Shown here: one piece after another, positions 12,056 to 15,451 of the stretch | Numbering within the stretch: the first letter of the stretch is position 1 | How the letters are laid out: the number at the start of each line of letters is the position of its first letter | Assembly: GCA_005883255.1 (NCBI GenBank) | Contig: VAXS01000115.1 | Span: 11,029-27,974, forward strand | Length of the DNA: 16,946 nt | Direction: 5' to 3' | Source of the DNA: Actinomycetota bacterium | GTDB lineage: Bacteria; Actinomycetota; Thermoleophilia; Solirubrobacterales; Solirubrobacteraceae | The notes under the pieces: model-generated | What the model was told of the DNA's origin: nothing | Seen by the model: only the letters and a program-made list of their open reading frames with translations | Database searches by the model: none | Made by a program: the position numbers and the translations under genes

Positions 12056-12061
12056 AGTCTA
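12056..12061 (-). promoter_or_regulatory. Predicted -10 box of a leaderless transcript (HxlR gene)
   Basis: On the minus strand TAGACT is seven bases before the ATG at 12048 and overlaps the TAG stop codon of the preceding AhpD-like gene. There is no Shine-Dalgarno. The hexamer is identical to the one before the ceramidase-like gene. Confidence 0.4.
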
Positions 12062-12628
12062 GGCCGCGCGGAGCGTGGCGGTGCGGGACTCCTCGACGGA
12101 GCCGTCCACCGGCACGTCTCCGGCGACGTTGATCGTCGCCGTAAAGGTCTCGAGGCTCACGTAGGCCAACGCCTCGAGGATCTGCTCGTCGGTCCAGCCG
12201 GCCTCGCGCGCCTCCTCGTGGAGGTGGAGCGGGGCCCGGCCCTGCTCCTCGACGACGGCCTTCAGGTAGCGCAGCAGCGCCGCCTGACGCTCGTCGCCCG
12301 AGTCGAACTCGCGGGCGAGCTCGACCTCGTCGAGGCCCAGTCCGGCCGTGCGCGCCATGCGGCTGTGCATGGCGAGCCCGGGCTGGGAGCCGTAGTGGTC
12401 GGCCACCGCCAGCGCGATCCGCTCGACCGTGGGAAGGTCGAGCGTCCCGTGGCGCAGCTCCGAGCGGAACCGCGCGTAGGCGCGGATCGCCGCGGGCGAG
12501 CCCGCCAGCACCCCCAGGAAGTTGGGGAGCTGGCCGCCGGTGGCCAGCGCGCCCTTCAGCACCGGGGTGGAGGCTTCGGGCGCGGTCAGCTCGTCGTGGA
12601 TGTGGAATCTGCTCATTGCGGTCTTCAT
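12059..12628 (-). CDS. AhpD/carboxymuconolactone-decarboxylase-like protein lacking the CxxC motif
   Basis: The 189-residue product has the helical CMD/AhpD fold pattern: PNFLGVLAGSPAAIRAYARF, then VERIALAVADHYGSQPGLAMHSRMAR, then a second helical part with GWTDEQILEALAYVSLETFT. In active AhpD-like peroxidase-related proteins the central segment reads approximately NGCxYCxxxH. Here it is YGSQPGLAMH, so both redox cysteines are replaced (Ser and Gly) while the histidine stays. The whole protein contains no cysteine, so alkylhydroperoxidase activity by the usual route is excluded. The start may be ATG 12628 or ATG 12616, and neither has a strong Shine-Dalgarno. The gene has its own promoter with an HxlR-type dyad and is followed by the HxlR gene. 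Confidence 0.85.
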   Translation of the reverse strand: MKTAMSRFHIHDELTAPEASTPVLKGALATGGQLPNFLGVLAGSPAAIRAYARFRSELRHGTLDLPTVERIALAVADHYGSQPGLAMHSRMARTAGLGLDEVELAREFDSGDERQAALLRYLKAVVEEQGRAPLHLHEEAREAGWTDEQILEALAYVSLETFTATINVAGDVPVDGSVEESRTATLRAA

Positions 12629-12661
12629 GGGCGGTCTCTCAAGGGAGGAGGAGAGATGTGA

Positions 12662-12681
12662 CCGCGCCCTTGTGGGCGCGG
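12662..12681 (-). promoter_or_regulatory. Perfect hairpin in the 5' leader of the AhpD-like gene
   Basis: CCGCGCCC and GGGCGCGG are perfect 8-base arms around a 4-base loop (TTGT on the plus strand, ACAA on the transcript). The element lies between the predicted transcription start (about 12713) and the start codon at 12628. It could stabilise the leader or affect translation. There is no T-run after it on either strand, so it is not a standard terminator. Confidence 0.5.
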
Positions 12682-12706
12682 CTGGTACTTCTCCGAGGGG
12701 CTATTC

Positions 12707-12721
12707 CTTACTGTTCGTAAG
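12707..12721. promoter_or_regulatory. HxlR-type operator dyad upstream of the AhpD-like gene
   Basis: The sequence CTTAC-TGTTC-GTAAG is a perfect 5-base dyad with a 5-base centre, in an AT-rich island that stands out from its surroundings. Operators of HxlR-family regulators such as YodB have the related form TACT-n-GTAAGTA. The dyad overlaps the predicted -10 box, where binding would repress. The HxlR gene two positions downstream is the obvious candidate for the binding protein. Confidence 0.6.
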
Positions 12722-12748
12722 TATATCGGCCCCGCGGCCGGTGCGCAA
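12720..12748 (-). promoter_or_regulatory. Promoter of the AhpD-like gene
   Basis: On the minus strand TTGCGC (12743-12748) and TATACT (12720-12725) are separated by 17 bases, a good sigma-70-type pair with a near-consensus -10. The predicted start near 12713 would give a leader of about 85 bases. The HxlR-type dyad overlaps the -10. Confidence 0.6.
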
Positions 12749-12825
12749 ACCGCCGGAGGCGGTCCGTACTCGGTTTCCTTCCTTATACGCGGACGTCTAA
12801 ACCGCGGCTCAGCTTCCCGGTGCGC

Positions 12826-13161
12826 TCAGACCGCGGCGTGCGACGAGGCGACCGTCACCAGGATGAGGAAGAGGGCCATCACGACCGCCCACATCGCCAC
12901 CTTGTCGGGGCGCGGGCCCAGCCGGTCGGCGGTGCGAGCGCGGGGACGGCGCCGCTCGATCTCCACGAACCGCGGGGTGCGGCCGGTGGCTCCCAGGGCG
13001 GCGCGGGGCGGGCGAGCGGGCAGCACCTCGAGGGCACGGGCCGCGGGCGGCGGGGCGGAGCGCTTCTCCGGCCGGCCGGTGATCGTCACGGTGCGGCGGG
13101 CGCGAGGCGGAGCCGGCGGGTGGTCGTCGACCCGTAGCGCGCCGGCGCGTGCGTTAGGCAT
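12826..13161 (-). CDS. Small basic single-pass membrane protein under c-di-AMP riboswitch control
   Basis: I do not recognise a named family. The 111-residue product has a long Arg/Pro-rich N-terminal part (about 1-85) without a signal peptide, then one membrane segment (about residues 88-106, KVAMWAVVMALFLILVTVAS) and a tail of only a few residues. The expected topology is N-terminus inside, anchored by its C-terminus. The ATG at 13161 is preceded by AAAGAGGA at a normal distance, directly after the riboswitch aptamer, which supports both start and gene. The riboswitch implies a role in osmotic, potassium or cell-envelope balance, the usual processes under c-di-AMP control. Basic composition and the absence of catalytic motifs fit a regulatory or scaffolding protein rather than an enzyme. 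Confidence 0.75.
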   Translation of the reverse strand: MPNARAGALRVDDHPPAPPRARRTVTITGRPEKRSAPPPAARALEVLPARPPRAALGATGRTPRFVEIERRRPRARTADRLGPRPDKVAMWAVVMALFLILVTVASSHAAV

Positions 13162-13176
13162 GGCTCATTCCTCTTT

Positions 13177-13320
13177 CCGTGCTTACGGGGTTAGCTGACG
13201 GGCTAGCGCTGAAAGAGCCGCGCTACGGCCCGGCGGCCTCGCTGGCGGCGGGCGCCGGGACGTTTCGCCCCAACAACTCGGGTCCCCCGCTTCCCGCGAC
13301 TGGCGGGAACTCAGCGGTAT
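13177..13320 (-). promoter_or_regulatory. Cyclic di-AMP riboswitch (ydaO/yuaA class)
   Basis: Read on the minus strand, this 144-base stretch contains the conserved cores of the ydaO class in the correct order. CGCTGAG opens the 5' side, then come GCGGGGGACCC (13280-13290), TTGGGGCGAAACG (13261-13273; consensus GGGGUGAA) and CCCGTCAGCTAACCCCGTAAGC (its first and last bases at 13202 and 13181). The last block closely resembles the Bacillus subtilis ydaO element as I remember it. A variable GC-rich stem lies in between. The element ends about 15 bases before the ATG at 13161, with the Shine-Dalgarno immediately after it, so ligand control of translation or of early termination is possible. No intrinsic terminator with a T-tract is visible, which favours a translational mechanism. 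Confidence 0.92.
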
Positions 13321-13330
13321 GGCGGCGCGG

Positions 13331-13360
13331 ATCGTAACAAGGCTCCGGCAGCACTGTCGC
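13331..13360 (-). promoter_or_regulatory. Promoter of the riboswitch transcript
   Basis: On the minus strand GCGACA (13355-13360) and TACGAT (13331-13336) are 18 bases apart. Transcription would start near 13324, just before the first conserved bases of the aptamer. This position supports both the promoter and the riboswitch boundary. Confidence 0.6.
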
Positions 13361-13391
13361 GGCGAGTGTGCCCGGCGGACCGGACAGGACG

Positions 13392-14003
13392 CTATTTGCG
13401 CGCGTTGGTCCCGGCCGCCGAGACCAGGCGGCACATGAGGGCCCCCGCCTCGGCGTCGTCGAGGCCCTGCTCGCGGGCCAGCGAGCGCCAGGTGGCGAAC
13501 GCGACCGCGTGCCCGAGCGCGGCGCGCACCCGCCGCCGGGCCTGGCCCCGGGCGCGGCGGCCGGCCATCAGGGTGTCGGCGGCGGCCGCCAGGTAGTCGC
13601 GGTAGCCGCCCATCAGCCGCTGGACGATCGGCATCGTCTCCTGGTCACGGAGGAGGTTCTCCCGCATCCGGTCGGTGCGCCGGTACTGGGCGTACAGCTC
13701 CTCGAGCGCGCTCCGCAGCCGCTCGTCGGGGTCGTCGATCGCGGCCCAGCGAGCCAGGTCGGGCGGGGGGTTGGCGTCCAGCCAGTGCGCCGAGCAGGCG
13801 GCGAACAGCGACGCCTCGTCCGGGAAGTGGCGGTAGACGGTGGAGCGCTTCACCCCGGCGCGCTCGGCGATCGCGCTGATCGAGGTCCGGGCGGGCCCCA
13901 TGGTCCCGTGCAGCTCGACGGTGCTCTCCGTGATGCGCCGGCGCGTGCGCTCCTGCAGCTCGGCGCGCCGCTTCATCCGGTAGGGACGTTTTTCGTCGGA
14001 CAT
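13392..14003 (-). CDS. TetR-family transcriptional repressor
   Basis: The 203-residue product has a TetR N-terminal DNA-binding domain: a basic lead-in, then TSISAIAERAGVKRSTVYRH and FPDEASLF at residues 40-67, which is the canonical helix-turn-helix. The C-terminal ligand domain is helical and family-specific, so the inducer is unknown. The ATG at 14003 is supported by AGGGGA five bases upstream. It is divergent from the cupin gene, and a perfect 20-bp dyad in the 82-base gap lies ten bases from its own start codon. The likely role is repression of both genes. Its stop is followed by the promoter of the riboswitch gene on the same strand. Confidence 0.92.
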   Translation of the reverse strand: MSDEKRPYRMKRRAELQERTRRRITESTVELHGTMGPARTSISAIAERAGVKRSTVYRHFPDEASLFAACSAHWLDANPPPDLARWAAIDDPDERLRSALEELYAQYRRTDRMRENLLRDQETMPIVQRLMGGYRDYLAAAADTLMAGRRARGQARRRVRAALGHAVAFATWRSLAREQGLDDAEAGALMCRLVSAAGTNARK

Positions 14004-14959: not shown

Positions 14960-15451
14960 CTACTGCCTCCCCGCCACGGCGGCCACGAACGAGGCCACGT
15001 CCGCGGCGTCCTTGCCCTGGTAGAGGCCCGCGGGCATGCGGCCGTTGCCGCGGTCGCGGCCGTGCAGGATGGCGTCCAGCACCAGCGCCCGCGGCGGCTT
15101 GAGCTTGTCGAGGTTGGGGCCGACCTGGCCCACGGCGTTGGCCTCGGCCAGCGTGTGGCACTGCTGGCAGATGCGCCCGAACAGCTCGCGGCCGTGCTCC
15201 TGGGCGGCGGTGAGCTTGATCCGGGCCTGCCCGGCGCGGTCCGAGTTGTGATTGTCGGCGATGACGACCGCGGGGATCGCGATGCCCAATCCCAGGTACA
15301 GCGCCGCCAGCACGATGACGAAGACCCGTCGCGCGGGCCGGCTGCGCAGCGCCAGGAGTTGGGCGCGGGCCCGGCGCGGACCGCCGCCCAGGGCGATGAG
15401 GAAGATCGTGATGCCGACCACGATCCAGATCGCGATGAAGCCGACCGCCAT
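14960..15451 (-). CDS. Membrane-anchored c-type cytochrome
   Basis: The 163-residue product has two hydrophobic segments (about residues 3-22 and 43-65), followed by an extracytoplasmic cytochrome c domain. The heme motif is CQQCH (Cys95, Cys98, His99) and the likely axial methionine is Met139 in NGRMPAG. GPNLDKL at 111-117 is the usual loop between them. It would shuttle electrons at the outer face of the membrane, for instance to an oxidase. The ATG at 15451 is chosen because the first membrane segment follows it directly; the open frame extends far upstream but lacks protein-like sequence and runs antisense to the phosphoribosyltransferase. TATCGT lies nine bases before the ATG, without a Shine-Dalgarno. 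No oxidase genes are in the window. Confidence 0.9.
   Translation of the reverse strand: MAVGFIAIWIVVGITIFLIALGGGPRRARAQLLALRSRPARRVFVIVLAALYLGLGIAIPAVVIADNHNSDRAGQARIKLTAAQEHGRELFGRICQQCHTLAEANAVGQVGPNLDKLKPPRALVLDAILHGRDRGNGRMPAGLYQGKDAADVASFVAAVAGRQ

Follow-up and report, generated by a model that had tools for sequence, protein, structure and literature searches.

An ordinary c-di-AMP riboswitch ahead of a conserved membrane protein of no described family, with a probable anchor or adaptor role in cell-wall remodelling

The locus discussed here lies in the genome of a member of the Solirubrobacteraceae (Actinomycetota, Thermoleophilia, Solirubrobacterales; assembly GCA_005883255.1, contig VAXS01000115.1), within a stretch of 16,946 nucleotides to which we refer as the window. 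On its minus strand, a promoter-like box, a c-di-AMP riboswitch aptamer, a Shine-Dalgarno (SD) sequence, and the gene of a 111-residue membrane protein follow one another, with a cytochrome c gene upstream and a carboxymuconolactone decarboxylase (CMD) gene downstream (Table 1). This arrangement supports the transcription unit that was proposed in a first-pass annotation of the same DNA.

Table 1. Features of the riboswitch locus in window coordinates, with the evidence for each
Feature	Position	Strand	Evidence
c-di-AMP riboswitch aptamer (RF00379)	13166..13326	-	cmscan, whole-genome search
Aptamer loop CUCUUUC, 5' strand of predicted pseudoknot	13211..13217	-	complementarity, modest covariation
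GAAAGAG, 3' strand of predicted pseudoknot, overlaps the SD	13171..13177	-	complementarity
Promoter-like stretch: TACGAT (13336-13331), -35-like GCGACA (13360-13355)	13331..13360	-	sequence; -10 position kept across related loci
Shine-Dalgarno AAAGAGG	13170..13176	-	sequence; 8 nt before ATG at 13161
Gene of 111-aa single-pass membrane protein (tail plus anchor family)	12826..13161	-	ORF, family alignments, dN/dS
Membrane helix, codons 86-109	12835..12906	-	AlphaFold; hydropathy window >=1.6 in 84/86 members
Motif RRTVTITGR, codons 22-30	13072..13098	-	alignment, pattern
CMD family gene, syntenic downstream neighbour	12059..12628	-	PF02627, synteny
Cytochrome c gene, syntenic upstream neighbour	14960..15451	-	PF13442, synteny

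The aptamer is an ordinary representative of the ydaO/yuaA class. The first-pass annotation had recognized the conserved cores of this class on the minus strand and named a covariance-model search as a check; cmscan indeed returned a clear, full-length match to RF00379 (model positions 1-134, 66.1 bits, E 1.1e-13) against a gathering score of 38 bits, making membership of the class near certain. It is the sole Rfam match over the cut-off within the window, and a whole-genome search found it again at the same position. Four further RF00379 copies occur in the source genome, upstream of reading frames whose translations resemble wall or secreted proteins (one of them truncated by a contig end). 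The genome also holds one diadenylate cyclase domain (PF02457, E 1.7e-26), as does each of the 14 genomes searched, and by this homology the host is predicted to make c-di-AMP.

The protein encoded downstream is rich in proline and arginine, basic (net charge +13 before the helix), and has one helix. Its AlphaFold model (pTM 0.30) contains a single confident helix at residues 86-109; mean pLDDT reaches 92-97 over residues 91-110 and 76 over residues 81-90, the rest lying at 49-63 without secondary structure. Searches against Pfam and NCBIfam gave no family match for the window protein, and its earlier description as an uncharacterized, small, basic, and proline-rich single-pass protein holds. 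The basic tail suggests that the N-terminus of this copy lies inside the cell.

When the window protein alone was compared with the named genomes, no relative emerged; its relatives surfaced via riboswitch-linked neighbours in a survey of riboswitch targets. A profile built from eight members then matched one copy each in 102 of the 146 genomes of the family, the other 44 (some of them incomplete) giving no match at E 0.001. The riboswitch was sought around 101 of these 102 places (18 + 83), the remaining one being at a contig start, and five of the 102, that one among them, were left out where a contig ends close upstream. Among the 97 assessable copies, 76 are accompanied by RF00379 above the cut-off, 1 by a weak match (31.1 bits), and 20 by none. 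The pairing is found in 19 of the 21 family genera with a match, and one further riboswitch-linked copy, in genome G190, was missed by the profile. Two profile matches (G091 and G113) are probably spurious, as frames of 540 and 571 residues with no riboswitch, and a match at E 0.008 (L195) was rejected as an unrelated frame. In a sample of 199 genomes from the class, the profile matched nine genomes in other families of the order, eight of them with the riboswitch. The earlier annotation had named absence of the gene at orthologous riboswitches as a refuting outcome; such absence was not what we observed, the pairing being kept both inside and outside the family. A genome holds about five riboswitches, and at that number chance proximity would not explain the pairing. 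The copies without a riboswitch belong mostly to genera g7, g13, and g14 (eight of the nine in g14), so c-di-AMP control is not essential to the gene. Beyond these genomes, a search of 5.8 billion proteins yielded 788 clusters at E <=0.01 from 7992 scored candidates; among the 120 matches listed, four names read Solirubrobacteraceae and one Phycisphaerales. Named records matched by one member came from Solirubrobacteraceae, Solirubrobacterales, Candidatus Siliceabacter, or unplaced actinobacterial MAGs.

The surroundings of the gene are conserved as well. At 18 other loci of the family, the region encoding the C-terminal part of DnaE lies upstream on the same strand in 17 and the cytochrome c gene in 15, and within the stretch examined CMD is present in 8 and GlnA in 4; a single locus (L202, in G186) has none of the four. 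Outside the family, cytochrome c, CMD, HxlR, or GlnA (one or more of them) is found near each of the nine loci from the rest of the order. Judging from these shared neighbours, most of the loci appear to be orthologous, and the riboswitch would therefore have been gained or lost at a gene that stayed in place. Ahead of the CMD-HxlR pair, we also observed an inverted repeat, CTTAC-N5-GTAAG (window 12707-12721), which recurs at 8 of 13 related loci (L196, L200, L201, L206, L301, L303, L304, and L308) and is a possible HxlR operator.

What the relatives have in common can be read from the 86 riboswitch-linked members (the 76 family matches, the G190 copy, the weakly matched one, and the 8 from other families), whose reading frames were picked by a script using third-position GC and a motif bonus, so that the picks lean toward the family; in five cases a bad pick was exchanged manually. 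The membrane helix is clear in 84 of them and not visible in L296 and L303. A PDR-type lead-in occurs in 82 and a loose RRTVxIxG pattern in 63, being absent from 23, and a WW motif is present in 41 and missing from 45, the window copy included. Within an alignment of 35 sequences, all of them riboswitch-linked members or matches of the family profile, R22, R23, T24, I27, and G29 are invariant. In 22 of the 86, the segment preceding the helix is neutral or carries a negative net charge, which weakens the topology argument made above from the basic tail. A stricter version of the RRTVxIxG pattern matched none of 143 other riboswitch-controlled reading frames, so the motif is not a common tag of the regulon. 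A second N-terminal tail, RDL..LW..SL..S..RR, was seen by pattern in 21 of the same 143 (e.g., L102, L129, and L151). Comparison of the window gene with a same-genus copy (L026) gave a dN/dS of 0.32, and over 12 hand-picked pairs the ratio ranged from 0.09 to 0.58, substitutions per site being mostly synonymous; the gene is under purifying selection.

Some relatives are considerably larger than the window protein. By pattern, 16 of the 86 riboswitch-linked copies continue after tail and helix into peptidoglycan-binding or RlpA-type (DPBB) sequence. Pfam recognizes both PG_binding_1 and DPBB_1 in L009, L312, L307, and L236, and PG_binding_1 alone in L269; two truncated sequences (L291 and L277) gave no Pfam domain. 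Of ten other members compared with Pfam, eight had no match at E 0.1, L076 had a weak Fn3-like match below the cut-off of that model, and L009 had its peptidoglycan-binding and DPBB matches only. NCBIfam added four models named after wall enzymes or lipoproteins, and each of these matched 1 of 15 members. The fused form of L009 sits at the very dnaE-cytochrome c locus, and four of five database relatives of its tail carry both domains, one of these being 100% identical to L009. The first-pass annotation had set the protein apart from the cell-wall targets of this riboswitch class, a separation that does not stand in the light of these fusions. At L269, the anchor gene of G303 appears to be frameshifted, with its two parts in separate frames.

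The coexistence of both forms, at related loci and inside genus g4 (where 12 of 14 riboswitch-linked members are fused by pattern), together with strong variation in length, could also mean that the small protein is what remains of an RlpA-type wall enzyme after loss of the outer domains, and that it has become dispensable. We regard such decay as very unlikely, as 70 of the 86 riboswitch-linked members are without an outer domain by pattern, and a dispensable remnant fits poorly with invariant tail residues, with the dN/dS range of the hand-picked pairs, or with one copy being retained in most genomes of the family.

Turning to the start of the transcription unit, the claim of a promoter was upheld in part. 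The position of the -10 box TACGAT is kept in relatives: 84 of the 86 related loci have 70 nt of upstream sequence, and there TANNNT occurs 59 times at offsets -12 to -9 relative to the first base of the aptamer. A control stretch shifted upstream by another 200 nt contained 7 occurrences across about 70 positions in 226 loci. The case for a full two-box promoter is weaker. GCGACA, separated from TACGAT by an 18-nt spacer, matches TTGACA at 4 of 6 positions; among 83 related loci, 72 have no -35 candidate better than 3 of 6, and no promoter was returned when 12550-13450 was scanned with strict sigma-70 criteria. Given the weak -35 boxes and the empty scan, a -10-type promoter is the better description of this stretch and a plausible one. 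At the other end, the SD directly after the aptamer is in place as annotated. A four-codon reading frame (ATG AGC CAT GCC TAA, window 13154-13168) spans the beginning of the gene in a different frame.

The aptamer and the SD are connected by a predicted pseudoknot. In the window, the loop CUCUUUC is complementary to GAAAGAG in the 3' tail at all seven positions, and in 74 of the 86 riboswitch-linked loci loop and own tail are complementary at 6 or more of 7. A similar loop-tail complement is present in the crystallized ydaO sequence given in PMC5393176. Early core patterns for loop and tail missed 114 and then 44 of 158 loci. Across all 229 loci, 159 reach 6 of 7, while 200 shuffles of the tails averaged 97 and never exceeded 112. 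Of the 94 loci whose loops are clearly variant, 29 reach this level (mean 16.8, maximum 26 over 500 shuffles with a wider loop window), against 19 when the consensus loop is compared with the same tails. A fixed-heptamer version gave 30 of 117 variant loops (mean 8.0, maximum 18 over 1000 shuffles), but here the consensus loop fits 28 of the 117 tails, about as many as the own loops, and many heptamers are probably out of register. A pairing test on aligned columns was itself in the wrong register, as a slide of +1 raised standard pairs from 54.5% to 66.1%. In short, covariation between loop and SD is present but modest.

The overlap of GAAAGAG with the SD makes an OFF switch at the level of translation likely. 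A rival view keeps riboswitch and protein as they are but has transcription attenuation, that is, premature termination rather than hiding of the SD, as the means of control. Such control is reported for ydaO of Bacillus subtilis and rpfA of Streptomyces coelicolor (PMC9960051; PMC10117811, cited for both), and the modest loop-SD covariation would leave room for it. Yet one consensus scan found no terminator-like hairpin or site between 12550 and 13450, the 3' strand of the aptamer overlaps the SD itself, and in 83 of the 86 loci no more than 15 nt separate the aptamer end from the start that was picked, leaving little space for a terminator before the gene. Attenuation is thus somewhat unlikely, and we retain control of translation as the preferred reading.

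The company that the gene keeps under c-di-AMP control is informative as to its role. In 30 genomes of the family, RF00379 has 158 matches at E <=1e-3, of which 150 pass the cut-off. At least 15 of the 158 precede a protein of the window's kind, each in a separate genome. Sorted by rough patterns, the 158 targets comprise 124 of wall type, 15 of the tail-plus-anchor family, and 19 that are unclassified. Other arrangements were seen as well. In genus g12 (L016 and L050, with L131), the riboswitch stands ahead of a 96-residue reading frame without a Pfam match, and in G121 this frame sits between two tandem riboswitches. At L306 and L307, in two genomes of other families, the riboswitch has an RNase P RNA (RF00010) upstream of it at a distance of up to about 1 kb. 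In other parts of the class, RF00379 is found ahead of genes whose translations look, by eye, like KdpA or APC/KimA-type transporters (L007, L013, L014, L022, L024, and L027-L029).

It is these potassium transporter-like targets, along with the action of c-di-AMP on K+ transport reported for Streptomyces (PMC10117811), that would favour a role of the small protein in regulating ion or osmolyte transport for the sake of turgor balance, in line with the suggestion of the first-pass annotation that it may be an effector or regulator in envelope or turgor balance. On the other hand, no transporter is found among the conserved neighbours tested (the queries being the window's own neighbours), the fusions found are to wall domains, and wall-type proteins dominate the roughly classified targets of the family. 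We therefore consider a transport role quite unlikely and return to cell-wall remodelling.

Taken together, we favour, with moderate confidence, a canonical c-di-AMP riboswitch that controls translation of a conserved membrane protein, a probable anchor or adaptor of wall remodelling. At high c-di-AMP, ligand binding would stabilize the aptamer fold including the CUCUUUC-GAAAGAG pseudoknot, and the paired SD would keep the ribosome out and the gene off. At low c-di-AMP, the SD would be free and the protein made alongside the wall enzymes behind the other riboswitches of the genome. Its C-terminal helix would hold it in the membrane, with the disordered and, in this copy, basic tail bearing the RRTVxIxG motif in the cytosol, and it would probably couple a cytosolic partner to cell-wall remodelling. 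In the fused relatives, the same tail and helix are joined directly to the peptidoglycan-binding and RlpA-type lytic domains. More tentatively, the protein may represent an undescribed family of c-di-AMP-controlled membrane adaptors, spread over several families of one order, in which the disordered tail, lying in the cytosol, brings a partner from there to the enzymes of wall remodelling, and evolution joins the adaptor to RlpA-type enzymes or separates it from them.

The locus thereby adds a conserved riboswitch target without an enzyme domain, for which the fused form hints at the pathway and the short tail motif offers something testable. It also opens a direct route to studying the coordination of wall growth by c-di-AMP in the order. 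In the literature library searched, no paper dealt with c-di-AMP in Solirubrobacter, and the riboswitch papers matching Solirubrobacter or the Thermoleophilia were, by title and abstract opening, on other subjects.

Compared with the ydaO/yuaA class as a whole, the window offers the usual features, i.e., a full-length RF00379 match, a 3' tail complementary to the loop, and a diadenylate cyclase in the genome, but the protein encoded downstream, taken alone, does not belong to the wall enzymes or the transporters. RlpA-type proteins combine PG_binding_1 and DPBB_1, and some relatives carry both after the same tail and helix, whereas the window protein ends after the helix and shows in Pfam and NCBIfam no DPBB_1, by which an RlpA lytic transglycosylase would be recognized. 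The nlpC switch of Corynebacterium glutamicum is similar in that no terminator was seen, the loop is complementary to the SD, and a translational OFF switch was proposed: PMC9960051 places repression most likely at translation and puts forward an SD-pseudoknot model. It differs in its target, an NlpC/P60 peptidase, and in resting on reporters where our case rests on sequence. Finally, the rpfA switch of S. coelicolor, although reported in PMC10117811 to act by transcription termination and on a lysozyme-like enzyme, shares with the present locus an actinomycete host and a wall-related regulon.
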